Positions 7,454 through 64,000 of a stretch of DNA of 64,000 nt are shown one piece after another. The DNA is from Candidatus Termititenax sp. Its GTDB lineage: Bacteria > Margulisbacteria > Riflemargulisbacteria > GWF2-35-9 > DYQY01. A program made the translations under genes and the position numbers. Below the pieces are notes generated by a model. The model searched no databases and had not been told where the DNA came from. It saw only the letters and a program-made list of their open reading frames with translations. Within the stretch, counting starts at the first letter, position 1; each line of letters opens with the position of its first letter. The stretch is from assembly GCA_020719045.1 (NCBI GenBank), contig DYQY01000002.1, positions 1-64,000 on the forward strand, in the 5' to 3' direction.

Positions 7454-7683
7454 ATGTCTGTTTTACTTATTCAACTTCCCTTCTGGACTAACAAGGATCA
7501 AGAATATGCTATTAAATGCATCTCAACCCCCAACCTAGGCATTGGATATCTTACCTCAATGCTTCTACAAAGCTGCATAAACACAAAAATTATTGGATTA
7601 AGTTGCTGCTTAATGTTATTAGAGTTTACGACCAAATTGCAAACATTTCTGGACATTACCGTTCATTTAATTTATATAATTGA
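7454..7683 (+). pseudogene. Remnant of a B12-binding radical SAM-type gene
   Basis: An ATG-started frame begins MSVLLIQLPFWTNKD, then PNLGIGYLTSMLLQ. That is the opening strand-loop-helix of a B12-binding domain, as found at the N-terminus of B12-dependent radical SAM proteins (compare VALIHFPP and GVNYLANYLI in the large fusion protein at 52-56 kb). After about residue 50 the frame turns into low-complexity sequence. The -1 frame then gives a plausible protein C-terminus, VIRVYDQIANISGHYRSFNL, ending with TGA at 7681-7683. The simplest reading is a gene with a large internal deletion that left its two ends. There is no ribosome-binding site. Confidence 0.45.
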
Positions 7684-7755
7684 TAACTCCCTTTATCTCC
7701 ATAATATTTATTGATATACTAGTTATAAGAATACTTATTAAGGGGAGTGAAAATA

Positions 7756-44910: not shown

Positions 44911-46281
44911 ATGACTCAATCTATTATCTGGTTTAATCTAAATAAATATTCAGAACAATTCAACAAATACTCCATCAAGCAAAACAGTAGCTATCTTGTT
45001 GCTCCAGATTTATTTTACATAGATACTCTTAATGATAAATATATTGTATTTGCACCGCTGCTTTATAGAGTTTACTATATCCCAAAACAATACATATCAA
45101 GCACTACTCCATTAATATTAAATGAAGAGAATTTAGATGAACTAATTAAAGCCAATCTGTTCTTACCTGAAGATATTATTAATTCGCTCTACCCTACCAA
45201 AAAAGACTGCAAAACTTTTAATCCAAACATTAGACTCCTTCTTACAACGGCCTGCAATCTAAACTGTGTATATTGCTATGCTAACGCTAATAAAACATCT
45301 AACTTAATTAGCATAGAGAATCTACAATCATTTATTAACTCTGTTCCATCTAATGTTAAAGCACTAGAGATTGAGTTTCATGGTGGAGAACCAACTGTTG
45401 CGTTTAAGCGAATGCAAGAAACATATAACCTAATAGTTAGCAAATTCCCAGAATCCACTTTTATGATACAAACGAATGGTGTTTTTAATGATAAAGTTAT
45501 GGACTGGTTAATATCTAACAACATTAGAATTAACTTTTCAATAGACGGTGATGAAGAAACACACAATATCCAACGACCTGCCATTAGCATTAACACTAAT
45601 AGCTTTAAGGAATTACTTAGAAATATTAAAAAAGCACAAGAAAAAGGAACTGGAACCGCCTGTATCGTTACGGTAACAGCATTTAACTTAGATAAAATGC
45701 AGGATACCTTTAATTTTTTAAAGGAGCATAATTTTAAATACATAAAATTTAATCCATTATTTGAAGAAGGACGTGCCCTAGCTGACAGTAAGAGCACAAT
45801 GTCTTCTCCTAACCTTGAGACATTTGCAAAAAACCTAGCCAAAATAAGCATTGAAGCATTTCAAAAAAAAATAATGATAGACTCTGACCTACTACCTAAC
45901 ATTCATACTAAAAAAGCATCATATTACAGATGTGGCGCTGTTTGCAGCCAAATGACCATTTGTGCTGATGGCAACATAATTGCTTGTGCTGATGCCTACT
46001 ATCTAACTGAAGACAAAAATGACAATCCATTCTTTTTCTCGTCAATAAACGAAAACAGTATTATCTATAATGAAGGACATCAACAAATACTCAACAACTC
46101 TACAGCAGACAACTACCCTATCTGCCAAAAATGTTTTCTAAAATGGCACTGCTCTGGAGGATGTAAAATTGAAAACTACCTTAAAAACAAAGATATTATG
46201 ATTCCTGATTCTGTAAGCTGTAATGCAAAACAAATATTCTTAACAGAGTACTTGAAGGAAATCGGAAGCAACATACTTTAA
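44911..46281 (+). CDS. SPASM-domain radical SAM protein (peptide-maturase type)
   Basis: A 456-aa enzyme. Residues 1-105 are a wing-like N-terminal region. The radical SAM motif is CNLNCVYC (Cys115, Cys119, Cys122), followed by IEFHGGEPTVAFKRM, MIQTNG and INFSIDGDEETHN, the layout of anaerobic sulfatase-maturase-like and RiPP-maturase enzymes. The C-terminus is a SPASM domain with auxiliary-cluster cysteines (CSQMTICADGNIIACADAY, CQKCFLKWHCSGGCKIENY). A peptide or protein substrate is expected. It converges on the giant 1174-aa protein gene, with a terminator between. The radical SAM/SPASM part of the 1223-aa fusion is a clear paralogue. Confidence 0.88.
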   Translation: MTQSIIWFNLNKYSEQFNKYSIKQNSSYLVAPDLFYIDTLNDKYIVFAPLLYRVYYIPKQYISSTTPLILNEENLDELIKANLFLPEDIINSLYPTKKDCKTFNPNIRLLLTTACNLNCVYCYANANKTSNLISIENLQSFINSVPSNVKALEIEFHGGEPTVAFKRMQETYNLIVSKFPESTFMIQTNGVFNDKVMDWLISNNIRINFSIDGDEETHNIQRPAISINTNSFKELLRNIKKAQEKGTGTACIVTVTAFNLDKMQDTFNFLKEHNFKYIKFNPLFEEGRALADSKSTMSSPNLETFAKNLAKISIEAFQKKIMIDSDLLPNIHTKKASYYRCGAVCSQMTICADGNIIACADAYYLTEDKNDNPFFFSSINENSIIYNEGHQQILNNSTADNYPICQKCFLKWHCSGGCKIENYLKNKDIMIPDSVSCNAKQIFLTEYLKEIGSNIL

Positions 46282-46348: not shown

Positions 46349-49300
46349 TTATGTACTAGCACCTGCTGCTGGTTGTACTTCTTCATCTTCTTCTCCTGGA
46401 AGTTTTGGTTTACCATCATCGCCATTATAACTATGAGTGCTTGAGAAAGACCAATCACTTACATCTTGTTCATAGTCCAAAATAAGATTCAAAGTGCTTC
46501 TGTCACTTGAAGACAAAAGACTGAATGCTCTATAAGAATTAGCGTTTTCATCAGCATAATTACTACCATAAGATCTGTTAATAATACCAAAATCTTCCAT
46601 TGACATGTCTACATGTTGAACAAAGTAACCTGAACCATTACTTCCAATGAATCCTGTTATTCCAACTAAGTTATTAAGAGCATCAGCAACTTTATTAGAC
46701 ATTAAACCTTGATTATCGGCTAAATAATTACTCATTGATGAACTATGACCTATCGCAGAAAGAAGAGATCCTTCTTCACCTTGAGAGATAAAAACTACCC
46801 TCTTAATATTGTTATAGTATGCAGGTCCATCAGTAGCATTTAAATCAAATCCAATAACTCCGGATAATGCTTTACTAACTAATGTATCAGCTAACTCTGG
46901 TTTCTGATCTTCAAGAGCTGCTTGATACAGATACTCAGCTGCAACAACAATAGAATCAACATTCAATAGGAAATCGCTATTATCAGTAACTCCAAACGCT
47001 GCTAAACTTTCACCCTTATCAAGATTAACACTAGCAGCAGCAATAACTGCTTGTGCTTGTATTTGACCAAGAGCATTATCTAAATCATTAATGTTCCCTC
47101 TGGAAGCAGCTACAACTGCTTCTCTTAAGTAAGCCTGGACTAAACCGTCACCAGCAAGTGCTTTTTCTTGAAGTGAAGTAAACAAACTTTCTGCAGAAAC
47201 ATTATCTATAAGCTCAATAAGAGTATTTATCTCTTTAAAATCACTAGCTGGAATAGTTGTCTGATGTATCATGAATGTTGCTATGTCCGCAAAAACTCTT
47301 TGTGTATCAGCGCCCCAATTATTCTCAAATCCTTTAGCTATAAATGACATTGCATTTATATCTGGATACATCTGAAATACCATGTCTGTAAATCTGCTAG
47401 TTTTTGCTTCACTTGGATTACTTACCAACAACTTAACAAGAGAATCAGCTAAATCTTGAGACCTTGGCTTTCCTTGTTGGAAATAAACCTGTAAAGCATC
47501 ATTAAACTCAGCTGGGTCTGAAACCTGATAGTAAAGAGATGCTATCGAATCTGAACCCACATATTCAATTAATGTATCAATAGCTAATGATAATGAATCT
47601 GCGTTCATGTTATTAAACAAACTAACTAATCTACTATCTACGCCACTATCTGCTGATATGCCTAGTCTCATAAAAACTTGAAACATTCCTTCTTTATCAA
47701 CAGCTATTTGTGATAATAATGGTGCAAACTTCTCTACACTTATATTTCCGGACAAGTAACCATCAATCATATTATCAGCAATAACACTATTCATTTCTCC
47801 AGGATTATCTATAAAAAACTGAGCAAAATTATCATTATATGTATTTGGATTATCAATATCTATTGATAAGTTTAGCGATAAGTAGTTACGTAATGCATCA
47901 TTGATTCTTCCAGTTAAAGCTGTAACTCTTGATGTGTTTTGACTATCTGCACCAGTTACTGAGGTATAACCTTCTACATAAGCAGCTTGGTCCCCTACTT
48001 GACCAGTTATTTGGTAATTCTGTGCTGAACCTGCTCTATGAATATCTTGATTAATATAAGCAGTAGGCCCATCTATCACACCAGCAACACCAGAAGCATT
48101 ATATGTTCCATTTTCAGTGGCACTACCCATAAATACACCAGTTTGCATTTCAACATTCTGAGCTAAATCTTCTTGATGAACTAAAGTCCTATTACTATAA
48201 TCTTCTCCGAGTAATTCCATCTCGTTATTTGTGCTAGCTTTTAATGCAGATAAATCACCACTAGCCTCTTCAAAGAAAATCATTGCAACAGGGTCACAGT
48301 TTCTACACTTAGCATCATAAAAAGAAGAATGCGTTGCAACAGTAGTACTCACAAGAGCAGTTTGAGCAAAACGTTCAGTACCAAATAATAACTGAAAATC
48401 ATCATTAGTTCCAGAATTAATCTTCGTATACTCTACACCAGTGGCAGTGTCAGCTCCTGTTACGTTTACTGTAAGACCTCCACCAGCTAGTAAATCTACT
48501 ACCCTTGCTACTGTAACTGCATTACCATTAGCATCAACTACGCCTAATCCAGTTACATCTACAGTTAATGAACTTATGTCATCAGCTCCACCACCATATG
48601 TTTTATATGTTCCTGAAGTATTAACACCAGGATGTGCAGAAGTGATACGGTTATAAACTTCTTGTGGTACATAAAAATATCCATTACTATTTTGCTCACT
48701 AGATGATGCTCTATTTGTAGTTATATGAAAATTATGCCATCTGCCAGCCGCAGAACCAACCACCCAACTATTAGTTGTTGAAGCTCTATTAATAACTCTT
48801 GTTTCTGAATCCCCCTTAATCTCTACTGTTGCATTCTTTAATGCAGTAACAAAATCATTAACAGCCTCACCTTGATACATTGCATTTTGATTATAGGTTC
48901 CATCACCATTATCAGCATCTATCATTGCTGCAGCCATACCTGCTATCCATGTTGCATCATATGTTGTTCCAGCCCAATCTAATTTAGCATTATCTCCTTC
49001 TGAAGCAAGCCAGTTCTGTAATTGATAACCGTATGCCAAGCTTCTTGAGGATTCAACACCGATAGTAGTATTTGTATCAACACTCAACTCTCCACTAGTT
49101 GATTTAATAGTATCAGATTGAAACACATGGACTTCTACCCCACCTGCAAGATTTTCAGCTGTATCCTTTGAAACTGCATCAGTAATATTAACGTTGTATA
49201 CAAGATCTGCATCTACTGTACTATCAATATCAAATTTAATGTTAATAACCCCATTATTTAATCCATTTACGTCATTTTGCTCAAAATTAGAAGTGCCAGT

Positions 49301-49873
49301 AATATCAATAGTATTCTTAAATCCTTCAGTCACATTGTTATTAAGTAGGACACTATTATCAATATCATAATTAAGTAAATATTCACCATTTGCATGTTCA
49401 CTTTCCCAACCAGTATCATCTAGGGCAACCGATAATGCATTGCTCGCAAAAGTTAACCCTTCAGACATGGCATCAGAAACTGAAACTGAACCAATGTTTG
49501 ATACCCCGTGCGCATCAGCAGTGCCTAATATCATCGTATCAATAATTAATCCATCTGTATCAGCAACGAAAATTTGAAAATCAGTATCATCACCTGACTG
49601 AATACCGTCCAAACCATCTGCATCTTTGATTGTTAAAAGATCAAAATCAATTACAGGTTTGCCATTAGCTCCAATATCATCAAAATCAAAAACAACCGAT
49701 TCCCCACCCTCAATATTTATTTCTAACCCAGAATTTACTTTACTTTGAAGAGCCGCATAATCTATAGCCCCATTATTATAACAGCCTAACTTTATTGCTA
49801 AAGCCTCCATATCGATTACTCTATCTGCTACACTAAAATCTTCCCCAGATCTAAAACTTATTGACTCTACCAT
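46349..49873 (-). CDS. Giant Asp/Asn-rich protein (1174 aa), unknown function
   Basis: I recognise no family. It starts MVESISFRSGEDFSVADRVI with AAGGGGGG just upstream, and has no signal peptide and no TM helix. Residues 1-300 are acidic and beta-rich (IFVADTDGLIIDTMIL, INIKFDIDSTVDADLVYNV). The middle is Gly/Asn/Thr-rich with one cysteine pair, CRNC. Residues about 700-1090 become helical and are rich in Leu/Ala/Ser. It ends in an acidic, Pro-rich tail (PGEEDEEVQPAAGAST). Composition suits an extracellular or surface protein exported by a non-Sec route. Neighbours are a methyltransferase and ankyrin gene upstream and a SPASM radical SAM gene opposite. Confidence 0.6.
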   Translation of the reverse strand: MVESISFRSGEDFSVADRVIDMEALAIKLGCYNNGAIDYAALQSKVNSGLEINIEGGESVVFDFDDIGANGKPVIDFDLLTIKDADGLDGIQSGDDTDFQIFVADTDGLIIDTMILGTADAHGVSNIGSVSVSDAMSEGLTFASNALSVALDDTGWESEHANGEYLLNYDIDNSVLLNNNVTEGFKNTIDITGTSNFEQNDVNGLNNGVINIKFDIDSTVDADLVYNVNITDAVSKDTAENLAGGVEVHVFQSDTIKSTSGELSVDTNTTIGVESSRSLAYGYQLQNWLASEGDNAKLDWAGTTYDATWIAGMAAAMIDADNGDGTYNQNAMYQGEAVNDFVTALKNATVEIKGDSETRVINRASTTNSWVVGSAAGRWHNFHITTNRASSSEQNSNGYFYVPQEVYNRITSAHPGVNTSGTYKTYGGGADDISSLTVDVTGLGVVDANGNAVTVARVVDLLAGGGLTVNVTGADTATGVEYTKINSGTNDDFQLLFGTERFAQTALVSTTVATHSSFYDAKCRNCDPVAMIFFEEASGDLSALKASTNNEMELLGEDYSNRTLVHQEDLAQNVEMQTGVFMGSATENGTYNASGVAGVIDGPTAYINQDIHRAGSAQNYQITGQVGDQAAYVEGYTSVTGADSQNTSRVTALTGRINDALRNYLSLNLSIDIDNPNTYNDNFAQFFIDNPGEMNSVIADNMIDGYLSGNISVEKFAPLLSQIAVDKEGMFQVFMRLGISADSGVDSRLVSLFNNMNADSLSLAIDTLIEYVGSDSIASLYYQVSDPAEFNDALQVYFQQGKPRSQDLADSLVKLLVSNPSEAKTSRFTDMVFQMYPDINAMSFIAKGFENNWGADTQRVFADIATFMIHQTTIPASDFKEINTLIELIDNVSAESLFTSLQEKALAGDGLVQAYLREAVVAASRGNINDLDNALGQIQAQAVIAAASVNLDKGESLAAFGVTDNSDFLLNVDSIVVAAEYLYQAALEDQKPELADTLVSKALSGVIGFDLNATDGPAYYNNIKRVVFISQGEEGSLLSAIGHSSSMSNYLADNQGLMSNKVADALNNLVGITGFIGSNGSGYFVQHVDMSMEDFGIINRSYGSNYADENANSYRAFSLLSSSDRSTLNLILDYEQDVSDWSFSSTHSYNGDDGKPKLPGEEDEEVQPAAGAST

Positions 49874-49971: not shown

Positions 49972-50733
49972 TTATGATGTATGCGATATTAAGAAATATT
50001 TATCCCCACCAAGCGATACTTTATCTACCATATCCCAATAAAATGACAGCAAAGCATCAGTCTCAGCAACACTCCAAAAAAAAGATTTTGATGTTACTTT
50101 TTCTAGTTGATTACTTTCAGAGTAATACTCCCTCTCAATCATTCCAGTACCAATATCGTAACCTTTCTCTTCGCTTATAAGTCTTTCCCCATAACCTTCA
50201 GCATAAGCTTTCTTATAATAATTACCATCTAAAAAAATAGCTTTTCTTCTATCCATTTCTTGAATGATAAACATCCCATCAGTAGTTAATACATCCTTAA
50301 CTGATGAATAAAGTTTGATGCTCTCTTTAGGTGAAAAATGTGGAGTAGAAAGACCATACATTATAACGACATCAAATTTCTGATTAAAACGCTTTATATT
50401 CAAAGCATCACAAACTTTAAAAACAGAACCACTTACACCTAAGGTTGCTGAAAGCCTAGCACTTTCCATAAGCAAGTCACGGGTATCAGTTACTAAAACT
50501 TTAATTTTTTTATCAGGAAACAAGGAAGAAAACACAAGTGACCCATACCCAGCTCCAGCGCAAATTTCTAAGATACTCCATTCATCTTTTTCTAGTAATT
50601 TACGTAGAATCAAGTTTGAATCTTGTAACTGTTTGAAATATGAAATAGTCTCAGCTAAATACTTAGCACCACGGTCGGATGAAGAATCATCTGGCCAAAA
50701 ATATAATTCATACAAGTTACTATTCTTCAGCAC
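49972..50733 (-). CDS. Class I SAM-dependent methyltransferase
   Basis: A 253-aa methyltransferase. Motif I is SILEICAGAGYGSLVFSSLF (Glu56 to Gly64), then KVLVTDTRDLLMESA (acidic strand), FDVVIMYGLSTPHFSPKES (motif II region) and DGMFIIQEMD. The N-terminus and C-terminus are not family-specific, so the substrate is open. Its start overlaps the ankyrin gene's end by 14 bases and the giant protein gene follows 98 bases later. It could modify that protein, a peptide or a small molecule. Confidence 0.75.
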   Translation of the reverse strand: MLKNSNLYELYFWPDDSSSDRGAKYLAETISYFKQLQDSNLILRKLLEKDEWSILEICAGAGYGSLVFSSLFPDKKIKVLVTDTRDLLMESARLSATLGVSGSVFKVCDALNIKRFNQKFDVVIMYGLSTPHFSPKESIKLYSSVKDVLTTDGMFIIQEMDRRKAIFLDGNYYKKAYAEGYGERLISEEKGYDIGTGMIEREYYSESNQLEKVTSKSFFWSVAETDALLSFYWDMVDKVSLGGDKYFLISHTS

Positions 50734-51385
50734 CGATAGACTGCAAATAATTAATAACTTCTAATCTATTTGCTCTTTTTGCCATTGCTAATGCTGTAGT
50801 ATTATCAGACATCCTTAAATTAATATCTGCCCCCTTATTGTAAAGCAAAACTATTTTATCGATATCATCTTTAAGTGCTGCTATCATTAATGGTGTTGTC
50901 CCATACTTAGAACCTCTTGCATTAACATCAGCTCCTTTGCCTATTAAATAGCCAAACATTCTCTCGTGTCCATATACTAAAGAAGTAATAAGCGGAGTCC
51001 ATCCATCAGCATCTACTACATTAATATTCGCTTGGTTTTCCAACATAAAAGTAGCAACCTTAAGACTATTATAAGCAGACGCACATAACAAAGCGACATT
51101 CTTGGAAACAACCTTTGATTCTACTAGAGGAATAATCCCCTTAGGTGAATCAGACAAAAGCACATTAATTAATGCTTGGACTTTCTCATCCTCAAACTCT
51201 TTAAACTTCTCTTGAATAACTTTCAGTGATTGCATTTCGTCCAATGTATTACCAACCACCAAAGAATCTAACATCCTTTTAGCAATCCGTGGATTAAAGG
51301 CAACTTGTTCATTGTTTTTAAAAGCATTAATATACTTTACTGTTTCTTTAGGATTTATTTTCCATAAAGCTATTTTTAATTCCAT
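50720..51385 (-). CDS. Ankyrin-repeat protein
   Basis: A 221-aa soluble protein. From about residue 95 it has three or four ankyrin repeats: NVALLCASAYNSLKVATFML, DGWTPLITSLVYGHERMFGY, GTTPLMIAALKDDIDKIVLL and NTTALAMAKRANRLEVINYL. The first 90 residues are helical and unassigned. Ankyrin repeats mediate protein-protein binding. AGGGGG precedes the ATG. It is the first gene of a unit with the methyltransferase and perhaps the giant protein, so it may be an adaptor. Confidence 0.82.
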   Translation of the reverse strand: MELKIALWKINPKETVKYINAFKNNEQVAFNPRIAKRMLDSLVVGNTLDEMQSLKVIQEKFKEFEDEKVQALINVLLSDSPKGIIPLVESKVVSKNVALLCASAYNSLKVATFMLENQANINVVDADGWTPLITSLVYGHERMFGYLIGKGADVNARGSKYGTTPLMIAALKDDIDKIVLLYNKGADINLRMSDNTTALAMAKRANRLEVINYLQSIGAEE

Positions 51386-51487: not shown

Positions 51488-52315
51488 ATGAATTATATTT
51501 GGGATAATATTGATAAACATCTTAGCAAAGATCAAATTAAAAGCTTTTTAAAACTAGATGGGATTGATTTAGAAACAGCTGATTTGCTTACCAAAATTAA
51601 GTCACGCAAACTATCTTACACTTCACTTAATTTAATAAACAAAAATGACTATATCTTAGATATTGCATGTGGGCTTGGAGAAGACTGTATTGAACTCTCC
51701 GACTTAACTGGAACAAATGGCAAGATTGTAGGTATCGACATCTCTGAAACTCTTACAAAAGAAGCAACAAACGTTAGTATAATGCACAGGATAAACAATA
51801 TATCCTACCAAACTATGGATGCACATGAATTAGATTATACAGACAATATATTTGATGTTGTCTGCATTAAAAGAAGCCTGCAACATATGGTGAATCCAAA
51901 AAAAGTTATTAACGAAGCATTACGCGTACTTAAATCAGGCGGAAAAATCATTGTAATTGAGCCTGATAGAGGGTCTGCGATTATTAATCATCCTGATAGA
52001 CAAATGACTAGAATGATTATGACTTATATTGAAGAAGTAGTCAGAAACCCTTGGATTGGCAGACAACTTAAACAGTTACTCAACACAAATAACACAAGTC
52101 AACTTACACTAAACTTCGACATAGACGTATTATCTTCATACGAAACCATAAACAATAATTTCGGTTTGGAAAAAGCAACTGCATACCTAATAAACCTTAA
52201 ACTTATAAGTCACGAACAATCAAACAATTGGCTAAACATATTAAAAGACCTTGATAAAACAAACCAACTATTCTGCTCTACTACACAATTTATTGCCACT
52301 GGCATTAAAGCTTAA
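51488..52315 (+). CDS. UbiE/Methyltransf_11-type methyltransferase
   Basis: A 275-aa class I methyltransferase: motif I ILDIACGLGEDCIELSDL (Asp58), IVGIDISETLTKEA, MDAHELDYTDNIFDVVCIKR, and ALRVLKSGGKIIVIEPD. The family includes quinone, sterol and small-molecule methyltransferases. About 50 helical residues precede the fold. Its last four bases overlap the convergent 1223-aa fusion gene. It is divergent from the ankyrin gene, sharing a 100-base AT-rich spacer. Confidence 0.8.
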   Translation: MNYIWDNIDKHLSKDQIKSFLKLDGIDLETADLLTKIKSRKLSYTSLNLINKNDYILDIACGLGEDCIELSDLTGTNGKIVGIDISETLTKEATNVSIMHRINNISYQTMDAHELDYTDNIFDVVCIKRSLQHMVNPKKVINEALRVLKSGGKIIVIEPDRGSAIINHPDRQMTRMIMTYIEEVVRNPWIGRQLKQLLNTNNTSQLTLNFDIDVLSSYETINNNFGLEKATAYLINLKLISHEQSNNWLNILKDLDKTNQLFCSTTQFIATGIKA

Positions 52316-55300
52316 GAGACAATTAGTCTCTCTATGTAGCTATCTAATATCTTAATTTGCTCTAATTTAAATTTATGGATTCTCTCAGCTGATTCAATAA
52401 AATCATTGGTTCCTACTTGTTCTTCTCCAGTGTATTTTTTACGATAAAATTCATTTAATTGTTTCTTTAAGTTGTTTGCATTACTACTATATAGTTGCCT
52501 AGATGATAAAAAAGAAGAACCTATCTGATTAAAATTTACAATTAATTCATCATACAACTTCTTTTTAACCTGATACTTATGAGAAATTGCTCTATTCGCC
52601 AAGTAATCCTTACTCATTTCATATCCAGTGGATTGAGGTAGATTCTCAAAGAAAAAAATCTCCACATGATCAATATTCCAAATATTTCTTTTTATATAAT
52701 CCAGTGTCATAACTACATCATCCACACCCTCTTCTGGAAGCCCTACAATAAATGAAGCGTGGATAAAAATGCCTGCCTCCGCAACATTTGCAATAACAGT
52801 CTCATTATCATTAATAGTTGTACCTTTATTGACAACATCTAATACATGTTGCGAATTACTTTCTATCCCAAAAGACAAATAGACGGCTCCAGCCTCTGCA
52901 AGCTTATGGCAAAAATCTTTATCAAAAACACTATCAATTCGAACATATGCACTCCAATACATCTTATCTTCATTAGTCAGCTTATTAACAAAATCTTTTA
53001 ACCAATTAGGGCTTCCGTTAAGCAGCATATCCGTAAAATAAAACAAGTTACACTGATGGCTCTTCACGTGAAAATTCATCTCAGAAACCACATCTTCTAC
53101 GCTTTTAAGTCGATATCCATTCCACAATATTTTATGGGAACAAAAAGAACAATTAGAACTACACCCACGTGAAGCAAAAATAGGGATAACTTGATGAACA
53201 AATTTACCGTCCTCGTAGCCACTTACATAGTTAAGCTTTGAAACGCCCACTTTAATATCCAATTTATTCTCGTCCTTATATAAAACAAAATCCTCGTTAA
53301 TATTCTCCCTTGTTATAACTCCTTGGATGTTATTATTGCCATTCACATATGACAACACTTTCTCTTCTCCCTCTTTCAATATAAGAGCATCACCCATCTC
53401 TGCACGTAGAAAATCTTTGTATTTCTCTACCTCCATATAAACATCTGGACCACCGAGAAATAAATTATATTTCTTCTTGGGTTTTACATTCTCAAGGAAA
53501 ACTTTAATAAACTCATAGGTATTATCAAAACTTGAGAGTCCAACAAAAGTATAGTTTTTACTGATAAGAACCGCTGACACTCTGGAAATATAAGCATCAA
53601 TAAAACCTTTAAATCCACTATCTTTTAAATAATTATCACTAAAACAAAATGTCTTCCTCCACTCATCTTTATGGTTATAGTACATATCCTTATTCAAATC
53701 GATAACTTCACATTTTATTCCCTTATTTATCAAGTAATTGGCAAGGTAATTGACTCCAGGAGGAGGAAGCATTGGAGTAACAGGAGGAAAATGTATCAAT
53801 GCTACCTTAAGAGATAAAGAACCATGAATATAGCTTTTCAAATACTCGACAATAAAATAGGTTTTAGCCTCACATCTATCCTTATATACTTTATACATAT
53901 CACCATTAAGCTCATAGCATTGAAGTAAACAATCACCCGCACAGTTCCATTTAAGCAAACAATGCTTACACTCAGGCATGTTCTCTGTAACTCTACACCT
54001 AAGCTTTTCTTCATTACCAACATTAATCTTTACTTTAGGCCCAATATTAGCCCAAACAAAAGGATTATCTGACCCTGCACCTTTATCATAAGCCCTGGTA
54101 CAAGAACAAACATCACCATTCGCATAAACACCAACACCAGCCTTACAAGCATCACACTGATAATTTCTCGGAATATACTGGAAAAAATCAGGCAAAAAAT
54201 CTGAAACCAAATAAACCCCTTCTTTGTCAGCTTTCATTTTTATCTCAAGGTAATTATTAACAAAGGTCATTAAATCAACGTCTCGTTTTGCAGGATGGTC
54301 ATTCTTTTGCGATCTACCCAAAAATGAATGCACTGGATTCATCATCATTGCTCTTACACCTAATAACTTAATAAACTCGTAAATACTCAGCAACTTATCC
54401 TGTGAATACTCTGTAATAACAGAAACAGTTGAAACACTCACGCCTTGTTCTATCATCTTTGAAATATTGGAAGTTATTTTATCAAAAACATCTACCCCAT
54501 CAGTTCTCTGAACATCGTTTACTTCTTTGTTTCCATCTATAGAAACGCTGACAACAATTTTCTTTTCAACTATCCAATCAATAATTCCAGCAGGAAACAA
54601 CCCATTCGTTTGCAACCTAATAGTGCGACTATTCGTTTTACTATCAATATAATCAACTATCTTCTTAATTTCGTTAATCATTAAGGTTGGTTCTCCACCA
54701 CCATGGAATTCAACTTCAATATTATGAAGGTTATCACCGTAAAGTTTTATTAAGTACTCAATAGCCTGTTCTGCAGATATTTCAGCCTTAATTTCATTAC
54801 ACTCTCCAGAACTTAAGTAACAATACTTACACCTCAAATTACAATTATTGGTCATATGAAAGCGAACTTTTTTAACAAACCCATTGTGTCTTTCTAAATC
54901 ATTAGGTGATTGTTTAAAATAAGTCTGACCTCTAGCAACAAGTAAGCCAGCCTTCAAAAAATGACTTTTATAAAGATCATTAAATTCAATTGGTGAAAAA
55001 TTCTTAAAATACCTATTAGGAACACCAACCATCCTACCTATTAATGGAAGGAAAAAATAAACACGCTCATTTCTTTTCTCAATAAAAAAAATATCTTTAA
55101 CTAACTCTGATTCAACAGAACCACTTACTACAAACTCCTGACTAAACTTACCAAAATGAGTAATATCTATCCCAGATATTAGTTTCTGAACCTTATTAAT
55201 AATTCCCTCATATATTTCTTGTGGAATAAATTCCTTTTCCCACCCTGACACAATCGACTTTCCTATGTCCTTAAAATACAACTCAGTAACTAAGTCAGCT

Positions 55301-55983
55301 AAAGACTCACGTCTTTTATATTCAACTTCATTTCCATCTAAAGAAAACCCATTTTGTATTAAAATCCTATCAGTAAAATAGTGAGCTAACTCATGAACAC
55401 CTACAAAGAATATTTCATCAGAAAGATTCTTTACGTTCGGTACAGCTATTGCAAACCCATTCCTTCCTGGAAAACCAACAGATTTACCACGTTTTTCAGG
55501 CATATTCTTAATAAGCCATATATGTAAATCCTCTTTGTACTCTATCCCAGAAACATATGAAAGGAACTTAAGTGCATGGATAAATTTCTCAATATTATTA
55601 CTTTTAAAAGCAGCTAATTCAACTATCACAGTTTCAGAGTCCCAACTATCAACATAACTCTGATACTCTTTCACTATCCACTCAAAAGAATCCTTTGATA
55701 CATTATCAAGCTGGTTCTTATAACCTTCAGTATTAGGAAAATTTCTAAAATAGAAGAGCATATTCTCTTTTAATGACTTAACCTTATTAATATCCATATA
55801 AAACGGAAAATGAGAAACTATCTGCAAATTATTAACAAGGAAATCTCTTAAATCCTGTGGAATAACGACTTTATGATTATCTACATATTTTTGATTATAA
55901 ACAGCATATGGCTCACTAACATCTTGTTGAACTAAAATGTGATACCAAAAATTTACAAAGATATCATAGTTAAGTTGAATCAT
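52312..55983 (-). CDS. Triple fusion: HExxH domain, SPASM radical SAM domain, B12-binding radical SAM domain
   Basis: A 1223-aa protein with three modules. (1) Residues 1 to about 360 contain FFVGVHELAHYFTDR (HELAH, 197-201) and ESLADLVTELYF about 25 residues later, the layout of a zinc-metallopeptidase-like site with Glu226 as possible third ligand. (2) About 372-715 is a radical SAM domain (CNLRCKYC; Cys381, 385, 388) with EVEFHGGGEPT, RLQTNG, VSIDG, then a SPASM region with many cysteines (610-704, e.g. CKHCLLKWNCAGDC). (3) About 725-1223 is a B12-binding fold (VALIHFPP, GVNYLANYLINKG, LFLGGPD) followed by a second radical SAM domain (CSSNCSFC; Cys941, 945, 948). It sits 59 bases downstream of the giant repeat protein gene on the same strand. 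Confidence 0.85.
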   Translation of the reverse strand: MIQLNYDIFVNFWYHILVQQDVSEPYAVYNQKYVDNHKVVIPQDLRDFLVNNLQIVSHFPFYMDINKVKSLKENMLFYFRNFPNTEGYKNQLDNVSKDSFEWIVKEYQSYVDSWDSETVIVELAAFKSNNIEKFIHALKFLSYVSGIEYKEDLHIWLIKNMPEKRGKSVGFPGRNGFAIAVPNVKNLSDEIFFVGVHELAHYFTDRILIQNGFSLDGNEVEYKRRESLADLVTELYFKDIGKSIVSGWEKEFIPQEIYEGIINKVQKLISGIDITHFGKFSQEFVVSGSVESELVKDIFFIEKRNERVYFFLPLIGRMVGVPNRYFKNFSPIEFNDLYKSHFLKAGLLVARGQTYFKQSPNDLERHNGFVKKVRFHMTNNCNLRCKYCYLSSGECNEIKAEISAEQAIEYLIKLYGDNLHNIEVEFHGGGEPTLMINEIKKIVDYIDSKTNSRTIRLQTNGLFPAGIIDWIVEKKIVVSVSIDGNKEVNDVQRTDGVDVFDKITSNISKMIEQGVSVSTVSVITEYSQDKLLSIYEFIKLLGVRAMMMNPVHSFLGRSQKNDHPAKRDVDLMTFVNNYLEIKMKADKEGVYLVSDFLPDFFQYIPRNYQCDACKAGVGVYANGDVCSCTRAYDKGAGSDNPFVWANIGPKVKINVGNEEKLRCRVTENMPECKHCLLKWNCAGDCLLQCYELNGDMYKVYKDRCEAKTYFIVEYLKSYIHGSLSLKVALIHFPPVTPMLPPPGVNYLANYLINKGIKCEVIDLNKDMYYNHKDEWRKTFCFSDNYLKDSGFKGFIDAYISRVSAVLISKNYTFVGLSSFDNTYEFIKVFLENVKPKKKYNLFLGGPDVYMEVEKYKDFLRAEMGDALILKEGEEKVLSYVNGNNNIQGVITRENINEDFVLYKDENKLDIKVGVSKLNYVSGYEDGKFVHQVIPIFASRGCSSNCSFCSHKILWNGYRLKSVEDVVSEMNFHVKSHQCNLFYFTDMLLNGSPNWLKDFVNKLTNEDKMYWSAYVRIDSVFDKDFCHKLAEAGAVYLSFGIESNSQHVLDVVNKGTTINDNETVIANVAEAGIFIHASFIVGLPEEGVDDVVMTLDYIKRNIWNIDHVEIFFFENLPQSTGYEMSKDYLANRAISHKYQVKKKLYDELIVNFNQIGSSFLSSRQLYSSNANNLKKQLNEFYRKKYTGEEQVGTNDFIESAERIHKFKLEQIKILDSYIERLIVS

Positions 55984-56042: not shown

Positions 56043-59000
56043 CTATTTCTTAGAAATAGACTTCAAATAAGACTTAAATTGACTTCGTTTAGAGTCAGCT
56101 ATTTGAGCAGAAACCTCTTCGTCTTTCTTTTTAGCGAGCTGTTCATCGTAATCTGCTTTTCTTCTATCATACTCAAGATTCAGTTCATCATTAGCAATTG
56201 AAATCATAATTCTAGCTAATAGAACTTCCATATAAATACTATTTAACTCAATCAATGAGTGGGCTGAACTTGCGTTGGCTCCAACAGAAACATTATTCCA
56301 CCCAATATTATGGAAAAAATCGTAAAACTGTCTAACCTTAGCTTCATCATTTGGACTAAAGACATCCTTCAAGAACTTAACCTGTTTGGAAAATTCATCA
56401 TATGTCATATCAGCAACTTTGCTAGATTTGAGCTGTATTACTTGATCCTGAACTGCGATATCTCCTCTGTCATAGTTAATTACTCTCATAACCTTTAGAG
56501 CTCCAAACAAACTTGATTCATCGAGTTTAACACCATCACCATTTTTTGAATGTACACTAATGGATACATCATTACCTTGAAATGATTTAACATTCTGGCC
56601 TGAAGTACTAAGCATTAAATCGCCAAAAACTAAAGTACGACCAAACTCATCTCTCATCGCTCTTTCCAAAGTAGACCTTATATTATCTTTACCCTGAGAT
56701 TCATCATACTTCATCTCAGACACTTTAGCCTTTACTGTTGCGTGTTGATTTACATTTCCTGTTTCCATATCATAATCAAACTTTGAAAAATCCATTTTAT
56801 TATCAATCTCTGAAGAAGTTGAATTCTTAACTACTCTACCTCCCGTTTCATACCATCCAACTGACTTTGTCATAGATAAAGTGTCAGCTTTTGAAGCTAT
56901 CTCTCCATCGGTTGAAACAAAAGCATTTTCAACAAACCTTGATTGAAACTCTGCACCCATAATTAATGAATCAAACCCATTCCGCATATAAAATTCATCT
57001 CTAAACAAGGACTCAAGCGTACTATTAGCACTTCCTATGGCTAACATTTCTTTAACTTGTTTGGCGTAATCATTGTACCTATCAGTCTGTATCTTCAAAT
57101 ATCCCATATTAGATTTTGCTCTATCTCTTAATAGCAACAACGCGTCATAAACAGTTAACTGACCATCTTCACTGCCATCGCCACTATAATCAGAAAGAGC
57201 TAACCACTCACTAGTATTCTCGGATTTAAGAAAATCTCTTTCATATTCCTGCTGCACAGTATTACTATTCTCTAAGTACCCATAATTGGTTCTTTGAAGA
57301 TTCCCTCCCCAATTACCAGTTGCCCAAACATTCTGAAAAGAAGTTAATTCTCCACCAGAAGTAATAGTCCCATTAAAATTACACGCACTAAAGGCAATAA
57401 CTGTTCGCTCAGAACCTTCAACCTTAGTATATTTATCTTTACCAAAATATTTTTCAGTAGGAAAAGTATAACCTTGTGCTGTATGTGAAACAGACGCGGT
57501 GCCACCACTTACAGTTAATCCACTTGAAGGCTCATTTCTTACGAAAGTTGAAGTCACTACAGAGTCTCCTTTTCTATAATTAGCAGAATAAGAAACTTTA
57601 AACGTAAATCCATAATTAGCACTAATTTGTCTAATAGCTGCTGCCAACTCAGGATTAAAATTAATAGAACTTGAGCTACCGCCCCCCACACTATTAAACG
57701 CAGCACTAATATTGTTTGCCATTACTGCAAAATCTGCCTGTGCTTTAGTCTTAAATGTAGAGTTATTTGTTACTGCCTTAGCATAATCGACACCATTCTG
57801 ACTTTCCCAAGTATCATCATCCTGAATAGACCATTTATTTTCAATAATATCACTAATCTTTTCAATAATATCAAAATCTTTATAGCTAATAACCCCACCC
57901 TTTGTTCCAGTTGTAAGTAGAGGAGGAAGAGTTATACCAGCAACTTCGCTAGGAACATTCTTTTTCACAAAATCCCATAATACACCTAACTCATCATCTA
58001 TAAAAAAATAGTCAGAATTTGCAGGATTTGCAGGAATTGAACTATCTACCCACTTAAACCCCTCAGCTTCCTTATATGCCTTTACCTGCCTGACTGTCTG
58101 CACAAAATCAGGAGATATAAACATAGCAATTAACGAGTCTTTTGTATTAACTTTTAGATTTTTATTACCAAATGCAGTATAGTTAATATTTACAACTCCA
58201 TTTACCCAAGCAGACAACTCATTTCCAAATAATTTATTATTAATCCTAGAAATAAGGCCAGATGCTCCATAAATCTGATCCTTCGTATATATAGTCACAT
58301 CCCCAGCACTGTTCTTATAGCCTTCTCGAGTTAATATATCAAAAGATGGAATTCCTAATGAAGGATTAATACCTTGCAGAATCTCATACTGATTATCGAT
58401 ATTGTTACCAGAAGTATCTTTCTTATTTACAAGGATACCCTCAGTTAATAACACTTTCTCTAAAATGCTATCGTTTATTTCGCTAGAAGTTATTGTAAAT
58501 TCGCCAAAATCATCCATCCATATAGGAGTAATGGTATCATTATTAGTAAAATCTAGCATATTAAACTGAGTGGTTGATACAGAAGCATTATTTGTTCCTG
58601 AGTCTGCAAAATCTATTGCACTCATTTTATTGTAAAGACTACTTACAAAAGTCTTTATATGTTCATAATCTTCTTTCACTGATTTTGCAATAATATCACT
58701 AACAAAATTTCGTTTATCAGAAGTAATTTCTTCTTTTCCTTCTCCATTTAAAATAGGATACTCAGCTCCAGTTACTACGTCTTTCAAGCCTTGTTTAACA
58801 CTGGCTACTTGACTTTTAAATAACTGCGAAAATGTGCCTTCTAAAACTAAACTATCAATTTTACTTAACATTTGACTTACCGTATCTGTTTCAGAAACTA
58901 TTTGTAAACTTCCAACAGCATCAATAATATTATTATCTTTAAGTTTATCAATTAATAGTTGGTTAGCATATACTGAAATATAATTTTTAAATGTTTCTAC

Positions 59001-62000
59001 TTTAACTAACCCACCAGCTGTCTTCCCATCTAACCATCCTGTCAACTTAGCATCTAAAATATCATAAGGAGATGTAAGGCCCATAGTTGAAGCAACCGCC
59101 GGAGGAGTCTTAATCTTATAACAATCATTTCCATCTTCGTCGGCAATTATCTCATCTTCAAAAACACTCCCAAAAAGCTGATTTGCAATATCTTGATAAA
59201 TATTATCTGCCATAGTATCCATAGCAGTAGCAATACCATTTTTTGTTACCAGACCAATTCCAAGAATATCTTCAGTAGAGTCATTGCCAAAAATACTTGT
59301 ACTTTGCAAATATGCTTTCCTATCCTCTAATAATGCATCATAAGATGATTTTAATGGATCCAAAAAATTAAACTTATATTCCATTGAAGATTTAATAGAT
59401 GTTTCTGTTGACGCAGTAGAAGTACCAAAGTAACCAAGAATACTACCATTAGCATCTGCCAAAATAGATTTAACCTTAGGTGCAGTATTCTTATTATAAG
59501 TAAGTTCATACAAATAATTGTTCCCATATTCACTAACATCAATTGACCAATCAGTGCTATTTGCAGATGTAGGAACATATGTTAATCCTGCATTCTGAAA
59601 AGCCTTCTGAGCCTTAGAAACATCAGTAATTACTCCTATTCTTGCTACGGTCGCATCTACATCAACAAGTGGCATTCCTGCACTTACTGCATATTCAGTA
59701 GCATCAATAACTACACCATTATCTTTAGCAATAGTTACGAAACTACCATCAGAAAAGACATCATAAGTATTCCAACCCATAACAGCTTTAACAGTCATCC
59801 TTAGTGAATCATTTAATTTACTCTCATAACCTTCATTAACTGTATTAACATAAGGAGCTGGAGTAACTCCTTGATCTAAACCCTCAATTGGACTAAACCC
59901 GATATCAACACCATTACTATTAACTCTAACAATACAGCCTTCCCAGTTATTACCAGTTTTATAAGCCAAGCTAACATCAAACTCTCCAGCTTGTCCTGAC
60001 TTTTTAATAGTTGCCTTCCAATTAGCTTTATTAGCAACTGTTGCCGCAAATGGTGCACCAGTAGTAGAAATTAGCTTATTAAAAATTACTGCGTTATCTA
60101 TCGGTATTTCTGCAGTAGCATTATTTGCTAAATACTGAAACATTGCATTATAATCAGTTTTAATCGCAGTATCATCTATAAAACCATTAGGCATTGATTG
60201 AGTAATATATTCAACTAATGGTGCTGTGCTTCCGATATTCTTAAACCCAATATCCTTACCTGTATCATTCACTCTAACCACAAATTGCTTAGGAACATCT
60301 GGGGCAACTGCATCAACATCAATATTCACAGTAATATCATATTTACCAACCCCAACACCTGTAATACTTGCATTCCAGCTTGCAGTATTTGCTAATCTTG
60401 CCACAAAGTTATCAGAGGTCATACCAATCAAACTGTTAATAACAACTGGATTAGAAATATTAATCACATTAGTTGGTGTTAAGTCCAGATTTGCAAAAAT
60501 ATCTTTAAAATAATTGACATCAACTACATCTGCCATACCATTCCCTAGCTTAACAACTTCATAGTTATGAATGTTTTTAGTACAATAAGCATTTAAACTG
60601 TTAAGATCTTCAGAAAATCTAGTAGAACCAACATCTGCGCCACTATCATTAACCTCAATAATAAATCCTTTATATGTAGGTTTAGCAGCTAAACTATCAT
60701 TATATTTAACATGTATTTCATATACATTGTTATTTCTAACAACATCTACTTGGTATTTATCAGTATTACCAGGCACTCCAACTACACCTGCTGCCTCATC
60801 AGCTTCAACAGCAGCTATTGCTCTAAAATTGTATACTCTCCCAGCGGCTAATAATTTATTTATAGTATCTACATCATTAATTCTCCTTAAACCACTATTA
60901 TCTTTAACTCCTGGATTTTCCAATGCTGATTGGAAAACTTTAGGATGCGTAGTAATTAAATTATTTGTGATAACTGTTGCCGGATACTCTGTCATAGATA
61001 TAAGATTTACAGCGCTCCCTAAATCAGTAGGGTCTAAAGAAGTAATATTACCAATAGAGGAATAACCAACATCTTTACCAGAAGCATCGACTCTTACAGT
61101 GAGTCCTTTTATGCCATCAACTGCTCCCTTCCATCTAATTGTCACATCATATGCGCCCAAATAGTTGTTATTATCAGGGGTTGGAACAGGGTCTAATATA
61201 GTTTTTTTCTTAATAACCAAACTCCAATCAGTTTGGTTAGCAACTGTTGCTACAAAATCATTATTCCCAGTAATTGCATAAAGCTTTTTAAATAGTTCAT
61301 GATTATCTAATGACACAAATTCACCATCAGCTAAAGCATCAACTTGAGCTAACAATGGAGAACTTGCACCATCCTTATACAATTTATTACAATCAGCAAA
61401 GAAACCATTATTGACCGCTTTATAATGAGGCTCTTGATAAGAAAACACGTCAACACTACACATACTACTTAAATTTGCTAAATTTTCTATCTTACTTTTT
61501 CCTACATCTTTACCATCTCTTCCAATTCTAACTATATAACCTTTTGCCTGAACACCATCAGTATACTTAACATGAACATCGTTGGTATCTCCTGAGGTTG
61601 ACTTCTTAATGTCTATCTTCCATAAAGTATTATTATTAAACTGAGCGTCAAATGCTGGAGCAACCCCATCAAGAACAGGGTTATCGCTTTGCAACGGCGC
61701 AATATTTAAAAAACGATTAGCTATACCTATGTTTGGGACATTAACCACAGCACCAGCAACCGCAACATTTTCTGCATTAACACCATCTCTATTTGCATCT
61801 AAATAGCTAAAAACACTATCATAGTAATCTGATTCTTCACTCCCTATTAATCCCTGAAGGTTAGAAGTACGATATAACCCCACATCCACACTTTTTGTAA
61901 CCTCTGAGTCCAGACTTTGAAGAGCAATATCCGCCTGACTAATCCCAATGTCTTTCCCTGAAGCATCAAGCTTAACTCTATACCCTGTAATACTAGTTCC

Positions 62001-64000
62001 ATTTTGATATTTTAACTGTACATCATAACCGCCAGTAACCTTCTTTATTGAAGACTTCCAGTTAGTAGCACCATCAGTTGCTGTAAAATCACTTACACCA
62101 ACAACATCATGCAATAATTTATTAAACTGATTTGCAGTATTTAACTGTACTGTTTTAGTAGGATAAGCATCTAAAAACTGATAGATAGTATATATATTCT
62201 GCTCGTCTGGTGCAGGGACTGCCTGATAACTATCAGTAGCGCCCATTGCCACGTTCCTAACTGTTACTGGCTTCCTCTCAGCATTTAGCAGTGGAGTATA
62301 TAGACGATTATATTTATCAACGCTGTATGTTACACCGCTAAAAGTAGCTTGTTGCCCAGTCCAACTAAACGGCTCGGTTGACTCCTTGTCAGCTTCGTTA
62401 ATCAATCCATCATTGTTAGCATCAACAGGAGATGCAAATGACATCATCATGTAGAAATTATTCATCTTCTGCATTTCTGCTATCATACTAAAATACATTT
62501 TATCCACCATATTTACTTCATAACGAGCAGAATCTACTCCATCCATAAACTGATCACTATCTGGTATCTGTTTAGAACTTACATATGGAGACTCTGCTGT
62601 TGTTCGAGCTATTTCTGCTGGATAATATCCTAAATCTAATATACCTTTTTCATATAAATTCTCTGTGGTTGTTTCCCCATTTTGTTTTACTCCTGCAACA
62701 TTTCTAACAGTTCCATACTGAATATAATGAAACTTATCTATCATATTAATATCATTAAACATCCTAGCTTGGTCATTAACTGTGTCAGTTAAAATTGAAA
62801 ACATATCACCAGTATTATTAGAAACCTGAAAAGACATATCAATTATTTTTTCCATCTCAGCAGAAGCCTTTGCTGAGCCATAATTATCAACATTGCTAGT
62901 ATAGTTTTTATAGTAATGACTCATTGTTTCAATTGCATTGCTTACTACTCTCTGTCTATAACTATCATCTTCTTCGATTGAACCATCAGTTGCTTTTTTA
63001 TATAGTACAGTACTTGCGATATCCGTTCTTGTATCTAGGTAATCTATTATGAAATTCTTGCTATTAGCAGTTTCATCTTTTATTACCAACATATCACCAG
63101 CAGACTTCTTTATCTTTGTAATAAAATCGTTTAACTGAATCCATTTTGTTGCTTCATTTCCAACTGGATTCGTTACATAATATATTTTCTCTTGATTATC
63201 TTTTTTATAAGCAGTCCCATCCCTTCCAGGATAAGAACCAGTTAAAACAGTTGCCCTATCTGCATCAGCTACCTTAGAAATCATCCAATCTTTAGCCTCT
63301 TTAACTAACGACAAAAGCTGAGCTAAATTTGTCTCATTTATTTGTGAACCAGACTCAACTGAAGCTGAAACTTTTCTAAGCATACTATTTAAATCATCTA
63401 GACATTTAGGCCTTTTGTTATTCTCATCTACAAAAGAATCATCGATAAGCAAATTAGGAAGTTCGAGTTTATTCTCTTTTAATGCCCTGTTCAGTGAATC
63501 TTGATACAAAGTAAACATTGCCTGATTGGTTGTATATTCAATAGCTCTCTTATTCAACCAATTAAGCTTTTCAATTTTTCTATCTACAGGGTCAGTAATA
63601 ATCTTCCCAACATCTTTTGGGATAAAATAATTATACATTCTTTCATATCTACCAGCTACTGTCTGAACATCCATATACAGATAATCTTCAGTAGTGTCAC
63701 ACTGCCATATATCAGGGTTAGTGTATTTAGAAACAGCATCTTTTATATCTGGGTCTGAATCCTGTATTCCAAATATTGTGGACATAGCGTAAGTATATCT
63801 TCTTCTCGATTCTAACATCATCATAGACATATTAAATACATCTTTATCTTCCCATTTAGTGTCATCAGCTGCTGGTTGTGAAAAATCAATACCTTTTCTA
63901 GCTAACTCATAAATATTTGGAATATAGGCTGCTTCGTGATTTCCTTCCAGACCGCTTACTTTAATCTTTATCTTATTTAAAAAAGACTCAAACTCTCCTG
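56043..64000 (-). CDS. Giant repeat protein, over 2650 aa, N-terminus beyond the window
   Basis: The frame stays open past the ATG at 63830 to the window edge (EGNHEAAYIPNIYEL and KWEDKDVFNMS precede it), so that ATG is internal and the gene is partial. I do not recognise a family. The first part is helical. From about 62.2 to 59.4 kb there are six or seven degenerate units of roughly 120-150 aa, each with FNKLL-type helix, a DWxxxIKK strand, and VRVDASGKDVGYSSIGNITS or a close variant. The C-terminal 1000 residues are mixed, with calcium-type loops (DANNDGLINEAD, SGDGSEDGQLTVYDALLLL), ending in a charged coiled coil. The downstream gene is the triple-fusion radical SAM enzyme. Confidence 0.7.
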   Translation of the reverse strand, partial: GEFESFLNKIKIKVSGLEGNHEAAYIPNIYELARKGIDFSQPAADDTKWEDKDVFNMSMMMLESRRRYTYAMSTIFGIQDSDPDIKDAVSKYTNPDIWQCDTTEDYLYMDVQTVAGRYERMYNYFIPKDVGKIITDPVDRKIEKLNWLNKRAIEYTTNQAMFTLYQDSLNRALKENKLELPNLLIDDSFVDENNKRPKCLDDLNSMLRKVSASVESGSQINETNLAQLLSLVKEAKDWMISKVADADRATVLTGSYPGRDGTAYKKDNQEKIYYVTNPVGNEATKWIQLNDFITKIKKSAGDMLVIKDETANSKNFIIDYLDTRTDIASTVLYKKATDGSIEEDDSYRQRVVSNAIETMSHYYKNYTSNVDNYGSAKASAEMEKIIDMSFQVSNNTGDMFSILTDTVNDQARMFNDINMIDKFHYIQYGTVRNVAGVKQNGETTTENLYEKGILDLGYYPAEIARTTAESPYVSSKQIPDSDQFMDGVDSARYEVNMVDKMYFSMIAEMQKMNNFYMMMSFASPVDANNDGLINEADKESTEPFSWTGQQATFSGVTYSVDKYNRLYTPLLNAERKPVTVRNVAMGATDSYQAVPAPDEQNIYTIYQFLDAYPTKTVQLNTANQFNKLLHDVVGVSDFTATDGATNWKSSIKKVTGGYDVQLKYQNGTSITGYRVKLDASGKDIGISQADIALQSLDSEVTKSVDVGLYRTSNLQGLIGSEESDYYDSVFSYLDANRDGVNAENVAVAGAVVNVPNIGIANRFLNIAPLQSDNPVLDGVAPAFDAQFNNNTLWKIDIKKSTSGDTNDVHVKYTDGVQAKGYIVRIGRDGKDVGKSKIENLANLSSMCSVDVFSYQEPHYKAVNNGFFADCNKLYKDGASSPLLAQVDALADGEFVSLDNHELFKKLYAITGNNDFVATVANQTDWSLVIKKKTILDPVPTPDNNNYLGAYDVTIRWKGAVDGIKGLTVRVDASGKDVGYSSIGNITSLDPTDLGSAVNLISMTEYPATVITNNLITTHPKVFQSALENPGVKDNSGLRRINDVDTINKLLAAGRVYNFRAIAAVEADEAAGVVGVPGNTDKYQVDVVRNNNVYEIHVKYNDSLAAKPTYKGFIIEVNDSGADVGSTRFSEDLNSLNAYCTKNIHNYEVVKLGNGMADVVDVNYFKDIFANLDLTPTNVINISNPVVINSLIGMTSDNFVARLANTASWNASITGVGVGKYDITVNIDVDAVAPDVPKQFVVRVNDTGKDIGFKNIGSTAPLVEYITQSMPNGFIDDTAIKTDYNAMFQYLANNATAEIPIDNAVIFNKLISTTGAPFAATVANKANWKATIKKSGQAGEFDVSLAYKTGNNWEGCIVRVNSNGVDIGFSPIEGLDQGVTPAPYVNTVNEGYESKLNDSLRMTVKAVMGWNTYDVFSDGSFVTIAKDNGVVIDATEYAVSAGMPLVDVDATVARIGVITDVSKAQKAFQNAGLTYVPTSANSTDWSIDVSEYGNNYLYELTYNKNTAPKVKSILADANGSILGYFGTSTASTETSIKSSMEYKFNFLDPLKSSYDALLEDRKAYLQSTSIFGNDSTEDILGIGLVTKNGIATAMDTMADNIYQDIANQLFGSVFEDEIIADEDGNDCYKIKTPPAVASTMGLTSPYDILDAKLTGWLDGKTAGGLVKVETFKNYISVYANQLLIDKLKDNNIIDAVGSLQIVSETDTVSQMLSKIDSLVLEGTFSQLFKSQVASVKQGLKDVVTGAEYPILNGEGKEEITSDKRNFVSDIIAKSVKEDYEHIKTFVSSLYNKMSAIDFADSGTNNASVSTTQFNMLDFTNNDTITPIWMDDFGEFTITSSEINDSILEKVLLTEGILVNKKDTSGNNIDNQYEILQGINPSLGIPSFDILTREGYKNSAGDVTIYTKDQIYGASGLISRINNKLFGNELSAWVNGVVNINYTAFGNKNLKVNTKDSLIAMFISPDFVQTVRQVKAYKEAEGFKWVDSSIPANPANSDYFFIDDELGVLWDFVKKNVPSEVAGITLPPLLTTGTKGGVISYKDFDIIEKISDIIENKWSIQDDDTWESQNGVDYAKAVTNNSTFKTKAQADFAVMANNISAAFNSVGGGSSSSINFNPELAAAIRQISANYGFTFKVSYSANYRKGDSVVTSTFVRNEPSSGLTVSGGTASVSHTAQGYTFPTEKYFGKDKYTKVEGSERTVIAFSACNFNGTITSGGELTSFQNVWATGNWGGNLQRTNYGYLENSNTVQQEYERDFLKSENTSEWLALSDYSGDGSEDGQLTVYDALLLLRDRAKSNMGYLKIQTDRYNDYAKQVKEMLAIGSANSTLESLFRDEFYMRNGFDSLIMGAEFQSRFVENAFVSTDGEIASKADTLSMTKSVGWYETGGRVVKNSTSSEIDNKMDFSKFDYDMETGNVNQHATVKAKVSEMKYDESQGKDNIRSTLERAMRDEFGRTLVFGDLMLSTSGQNVKSFQGNDVSISVHSKNGDGVKLDESSLFGALKVMRVINYDRGDIAVQDQVIQLKSSKVADMTYDEFSKQVKFLKDVFSPNDEAKVRQFYDFFHNIGWNNVSVGANASSAHSLIELNSIYMEVLLARIMISIANDELNLEYDRRKADYDEQLAKKKDEEVSAQIADSKRSQFKSYLKSISKK
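59395..62200 (-). repeat. Array of about seven degenerate 120-150-aa repeats inside the giant protein gene
   Basis: The conserved core is V(R/K)(V/L)xxxGKD(V/I)Gxxx(I)xxL. Copies read from 5' to 3' of the gene lie near 61946-61975 (LDASGKDIGIS), 61482-61540 (GRDGKDVGKS), 61032-61097 (DASGKDVGYS), 60600-60665 (NDSGADVGST), 60222-60281 (NDTGKDIGFK), 59870-59930 (NSNGVDIGFS) and a worn copy near 59395-59465 (DANGSILGYF). Confidence 0.75.

Follow-up and report, generated by a model that had tools for sequence, protein, structure and literature searches.

A fused HExxH, SPASM and B12-type radical SAM protein of Marinamargulisbacteria and its candidate protein substrate

An uninterrupted single reading frame at positions 52312-55983 (minus strand) of the window, the 64,000-nucleotide stretch of DNA analyzed in this study, encodes a protein of 1223 amino acids in which an HExxH domain, a SPASM radical SAM domain and a B12-type radical SAM domain are joined in one polypeptide, as an earlier note on this DNA had claimed. 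The window comes from a little-studied marine bacterium and belongs to a 1.75-Mb genome (G000) that is 99% complete. The protein is a real single-chain enzyme derived from two adjacent genes that became fused, one for an HExxH-SPASM maturase and the other for a B12-type radical SAM enzyme. We give about an even chance (0.5) to the reading that this enzyme matures a co-encoded protein of 1174 amino acids at the sequence CR[NM]CDPVA, most likely in the cytoplasm.

From its N-terminus, the chain comprises the HExxH domain (residues 1-272; 55168-55983; minus strand here and below unless stated), a new family seen only in Marinamargulisbacteria; an accessory region (residues about 273-358; 54910-55167) that is common to a stand-alone maturase of the same gene cluster; a radical SAM/SPASM domain (residues 359-718; 53830-54909) nearest to PapB-type maturases; and a B12-binding-type radical SAM enzyme (residues 722-1223; 52315-53820). 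The three named domains are thus all present, with the accessory region making the protein more than the three-part chain that the earlier note described. The catalytic motifs are intact, again in line with that note: the HELAH motif (residues 197-201; 55381-55395), the first radical SAM cluster CNLRCKYC (CxxxCxxC, residues 381-388; 54820-54843), the complete set of SPASM cysteines (residues 610-704; 53872-54156; C610/C613/C626/C628, C672/C675/C681/C685 and C704) and the second radical SAM cluster CSSNCSFC (CxxxCxxC, residues 941-948; 53140-53163).

The possibility that an assembly chimera had joined two genes is ruled out by a sister species (G001), which carries the same chain. There contig C80 stops at residue 599 of the chain, and contig C1 opens with its continuation; within the SPASM part the two contig ends have exactly 127 bases in common, the pattern that a k-mer break within a single continuous gene would leave. 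In a more distant Marinamargulisbacterium of the same order (G005; uncultured Candidatus Marinamargulisbacteria bacterium, contig CAIUCY010000106.1), two genes are found, the one encoding a 678-amino-acid HExxH-SPASM protein and the next a 470-amino-acid B12-radical SAM protein. These genes overlap by 11 bases (GTGAGTCTTGA), and their protein sequences abut at the junction of the fused chain. Since the same parts are two overlapping genes in G005, the 1223-amino-acid chain is a gene fusion; a tightly coupled gene pair appears to have been turned into one gene, and the separate B12 enzyme gene of G005 indicates that two co-operating enzymes were fused recently to give the triple chain. Every part of the fused chain, the HExxH domain included, is under purifying selection, with dN far below a saturated dS between G000 and G001.

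Pfam Radical_SAM matches the chain twice. The strongest NCBIfam match of the middle part is PapB (122.6 bits), and the C-terminal part matches PhpK, BchE and HpnJ (about 85-91 bits); these scores are far above chance, yet none reaches a curated cut-off, that of the PapB model (NF047865) being 340 bits. The stand-alone maturase scores 128.8 bits with the same model. QhpD also matches the SPASM proteins, HxsB and the SCIFF maturase are other peptide maturases near both of them, and the SPASM part of the fused chain matches the ChlB radical SAM domain (structure 9gm3) as well. In the C-terminal part, a B12-binding-like region (PPPGVNYL at 740, GGPDV at 844) precedes the second CxxxCxxC motif; the Pfam B12-binding model PF02310 matches at 739-874 with E=2.3e-5 and 24.6 bits against a cut-off of 32.1, and the radical SAM core is clear. 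Among solved structures this part matches OxsB, a cobalamin radical SAM enzyme (5ul2). A PADLOC match to viperin (50.6 bits) was taken as generic radical SAM similarity.

Neither Pfam nor NCBIfam has a model that matches the HExxH domain, and PDB sequences gave no meaningful match. With a profile built on four homologues the domain is found in 4 of 74 genomes of the phylum and 4 of 383 relatives, in one order only; one of the four (G003) has lost the motifs, and a fifth genome matched by the profile (G006) is excluded from the count because its match covers the accessory region only. The AlphaFold model of the domain, built with these four sequences, reaches a mean pLDDT of 65, a moderate quality, and a Foldseek search with it against PDB returned nothing significant; a match to TigE (85 columns, prob 0.30, E 5.8) was set aside. 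Block values are mostly 75-88 for the HELAH helix (residues 187-210) and for a second helix (residues 219-239) that carries ESLAD (residues 226-230; 55294-55308). The earlier note would have given up its reading if the HELAH segment were buried and lacked a third metal ligand; E226, invariant in the four homologues and placed on this confidently modeled helix, is a candidate for that role. H197, H201 and E226 form the HExxH plus downstream glutamate combination of gluzincin metallopeptidases, and the layout HExxH-x(18-26)-E-x2-A-D/E is retained in G000, G001 and G005. Profile comparison gives peptidase M78 a Prob of 51 (local) and 40 (global), versus 14 and 0.06 for the ChlB-type oxygenase family, a lean that is weak and comes mostly from the motif itself. 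This layout, together with the weak M78 lean, leads us to prefer a gluzincin-type metal site, and the domain is probably a protein-cutting one, with peptidase activity predicted from sequence.

A rather unlikely alternative makes the HExxH domain a ChlB-like oxygenase that uses non-haem iron and alpha-ketoglutarate; the fused enzyme would then cross-link, hydroxylate and methylate with no cutting. ChlB-type HExxH-radical SAM fusions are described as oxygenases hydroxylating Asp and His (PMC12636437), and the candidate site discussed below contains an Asp, besides the match of the SPASM part to the ChlB structure. However, the corresponding model TIGR04267 matches none of the four homologues even at E=10, nor anything in the window's own genome, and both the profile comparison and the gluzincin-like layout point the other way. 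The domain order is also reversed: in ChlB and FxsB the HExxH domain comes after the radical SAM domain. We consider it unlikely, too, that the HExxH part only binds or has a structural role and catalyzes nothing, which would reduce the fused enzyme to a two-chemistry radical maturase. In its favor, the G003 homologue has SQLAH where the others have HExxH and carries no radical SAM cluster, which means that the fold persists in that genome without catalysis; the domain is also the least conserved one between the sister species G000 and G001 (54% identity). Against it, all three genomes that preserve their radical SAM sites preserve HExxH and E226 as well, and G003 has lost its radical SAM site along with the motif.

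The fused gene lies in a cluster with genes for the stand-alone PapB-like radical SAM/SPASM maturase, a 456-amino-acid paralogue of the fused one (44911-46281, plus strand); the 1174-amino-acid candidate substrate (46349-49873); a SAM methyltransferase (Methyltransf_25; 49972-50733); an ankyrin-repeat protein (50720-51385); and a UbiE-like methyltransferase (51488-52315, plus strand) convergent with the maturase gene. Directly upstream of the maturase gene is that of a giant protein of 2995 amino acids (in-window part 56043-63830). This set is likewise found as one group in G001 and G005. The G005 genes for the giant protein, a 1137-amino-acid homologue of the candidate substrate, the methyltransferase, the HExxH-SPASM protein and the B12 enzyme follow in succession on one strand, with spacings of 22, -4 and -11 bases from the 1137-amino-acid homologue onward. 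Among eight genomes of the class, the Methyltransf_25 gene occurs in three, exactly those with an intact maturase (G000, G001 and G005). The cluster has no intergenic space for a short precursor peptide.

Several further observations concern the surroundings of the cluster. The ankyrin protein is 86% conserved between the sister species, versus 48-77% for the other cluster proteins. In G006 the stand-alone maturase and the ankyrin gene lie side by side where a contig breaks off (L034 1-2204): the contig begins 136 bases before the ankyrin gene, and the other cluster genes may simply be missing from that assembly. The giant gene extends to contig position 65030 (L036 44-9031), in the operon order GH8 (BcsZ-like), 229 amino acids, 314 amino acids, giant protein, and the same order is seen in G003. 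The giant protein has no Pfam or NCBIfam match, and its homologues occur in six of the eight class genomes. Flagellar-type genes (fliI, fliH, fliF, fliE and flgC by eye; L037 10694-15936) lie some 28 kb upstream of the maturase gene, and one may speculate that the large proteins could be exported by a flagellar-type system. By eye, a short frame at 7454-7714 of the window resembles a truncated N-terminal piece of a B12-binding radical SAM protein and is possibly a gene remnant. Rfam had no match in the window, and a search of viral contigs, phages and plasmids found no relatives.

The family of the 1174-amino-acid protein is present in 3 of 74 genomes of the phylum (G000, G001 and G005), the same three that have an intact HExxH-SPASM protein. 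It is weakly conserved, with 158 of 1,002 ungapped columns identical across all three members. Its best-conserved stretch is CRxCDPVA, which holds its only conserved cysteines; eight of the ten columns of CR[NM]CDPVA[ML]I are identical, whereas shuffled columns reach seven at the 99th percentile. In the window protein the candidate modification site is CRNCDP (residues 523-528; 48290-48307), which contains a CX3D motif. PapB joins Cys to Asp across CX3D motifs (PMC9413430), and C523-x3-D527 has that spacing. A DNA pattern for CR-x-CDPVA finds, in the phylum, the three genes of this family and one further frame, in a fourth genome (G013), which overlaps a subtilase gene and was taken as chance. 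The structure model of the N-terminal half of the protein is of low confidence (pLDDT 41). On these grounds the 1174-amino-acid protein is the best substrate candidate and CR[NM]CDPVA the candidate site, a link that rests on three genomes of one order that are incompletely independent.

Could the enzyme act on something else? The giant protein directly upstream adjoins the maturase gene in G000, G001 and G003, even where the maturase is degenerate, but we think it an improbable substrate, as G002 and G004, neither of which has an HExxH maturase, encode it too, and its cysteines are hardly conserved (two common to G000 and G001, none in G003 or in the C-terminal part of the G005 protein). Still less probable, in our judgment, is that the cluster makes or modifies a target other than a ribosomally made protein, for example a quinone or lipid, and that the fusion is incidental. 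That would suit the UbiE-like methyltransferase and the relationship of the B12 enzymes to HpnJ, BchE and PhpK, which act on small molecules. Against it, the two SPASM proteins are nearest to peptide maturases (PapB, HxsB and the SCIFF maturase), and a protein with just one conserved CX3D site co-occurs with the cluster. Our preferred target is, as before, the 1174-amino-acid protein.

The intact set is found in only three genomes, all of one order, and pattern scans of 84,980 genomes find close relatives only. The maturase homologue of G003 (L035 8214-9911), a 565-amino-acid open frame still behind the giant gene, lacks both HExxH and CxxxCxxC, and that genome lacks the 1174-amino-acid protein, so that loss of the catalytic motifs accompanies loss of the candidate substrate. 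The degenerate homologue perhaps has a binding or chaperone role.

From these likenesses we infer that the fused enzyme would form a Cys-Asp thioether, C-methylate and cut. The accessory region would bind the substrate, as a possible substrate-recognition element. By its PapB/QhpD-like sequence and the motif in the candidate substrate, the PapB-like SPASM domain would form a Cys-Asp thioether within C-x3-D, and the stand-alone paralogue may join in thioether formation, perhaps on the second cysteine. The B12-type domain, judging by its family, would C-methylate a nearby carbon. The HExxH domain, through H197, H201 and E226, would cut the substrate or its leader part, by analogy with QhpE, the separate protease of the qhp system; this is the weakest step. 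The two methyltransferases would modify the same product, and the proposal fixes no order of steps. The earlier note had envisaged cutting and two modifications on one substrate; the layout of the cluster does fit several modifications of one co-encoded substrate, with cutting the more conjectural part. In a more ambitious version, which we put forward only tentatively, a fusion of protease, thioether-forming and C-methylating activities cooperates with the second SPASM maturase and the two methyltransferases to build a multi-step modification at a single CRxCDPVA site. The target, of about 120 kDa, probably structural and with no export signal visible by eye, would then be a large protein subject to RiPP-type chemistry in an uncultured phylum, with a new HExxH family involved.

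Most of what is known about radical SAM maturases concerns short peptides, and to our knowledge few large proteins are known to be modified, among them sulfatases, QhpC and methyl-CoM reductase. An HExxH domain and two radical SAM chemistries in one chain, with a candidate site nearby, offer a test case for the coupling of maturation steps, and the fused enzyme would be a useful source of a tethered multi-step biocatalyst. The proposal also gives a testable function to an unassigned large protein family of Marinamargulisbacteria.

Each part of the chain has its counterpart among known systems. Like peptidase M78 (ImmA/IrrE, PF06114), the HExxH domain has HExxH followed by an E-x2-A-[DN] helix and a weak profile similarity; unlike it, the domain has no Pfam match, its spacing and surrounding helices differ, and no such M78 fusion was met in this study. 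The C-terminal part shares with B12-binding radical SAM methyltransferases (the PhpK, BchE, HpnJ and ApyD models, and OxsB) a B12-binding-like Rossmann region followed by the CxxxCxxC core, but here it is fused behind a SPASM maturase and no model reaches its cut-off. A search of mainly open-access literature found nothing relevant on a two-radical-SAM SPASM-B12 chain, an absence that carries little weight. With PapB (NF047865), the best NCBIfam match of both SPASM proteins, and with QhpD (TIGR03906), the cluster has in common the radical SAM/SPASM core and a CX3D-type Cys-Asp site in the candidate substrate. In the qhp system QhpD makes Cys-to-Asp/Glu bonds in a protein subunit, which a co-operonic protease then trims (PMC7876137). 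There the gene for a large protein substrate accompanies that of the maturase, as does the gene for the candidate substrate here. In contrast, the scores of our proteins with these models are far below the curated cut-offs, neither PapB nor QhpD has the N-terminal HExxH and C-terminal B12 radical SAM parts, and in place of the short CX3D-repeat precursor of PapB there is a single CX3D in a 1174-amino-acid protein. ChlB and FxsB (TIGR04267) likewise combine a SPASM-type radical SAM domain with an HExxH domain in one chain, the latter an alpha-ketoglutarate oxygenase (work cited in PMC12636437). The HExxH-radical SAM pair as such is therefore not new, which qualifies the earlier note's statement that no family of this three-part order is known to it. 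In the fused chain this domain belongs to a different, unmatched family and stands N-terminal to the radical SAM domain, a B12 radical SAM enzyme is added, and no cyclophane precursor was seen. What is new is the different HExxH family, its N-terminal position, the third fused enzyme and a large protein as the candidate target.
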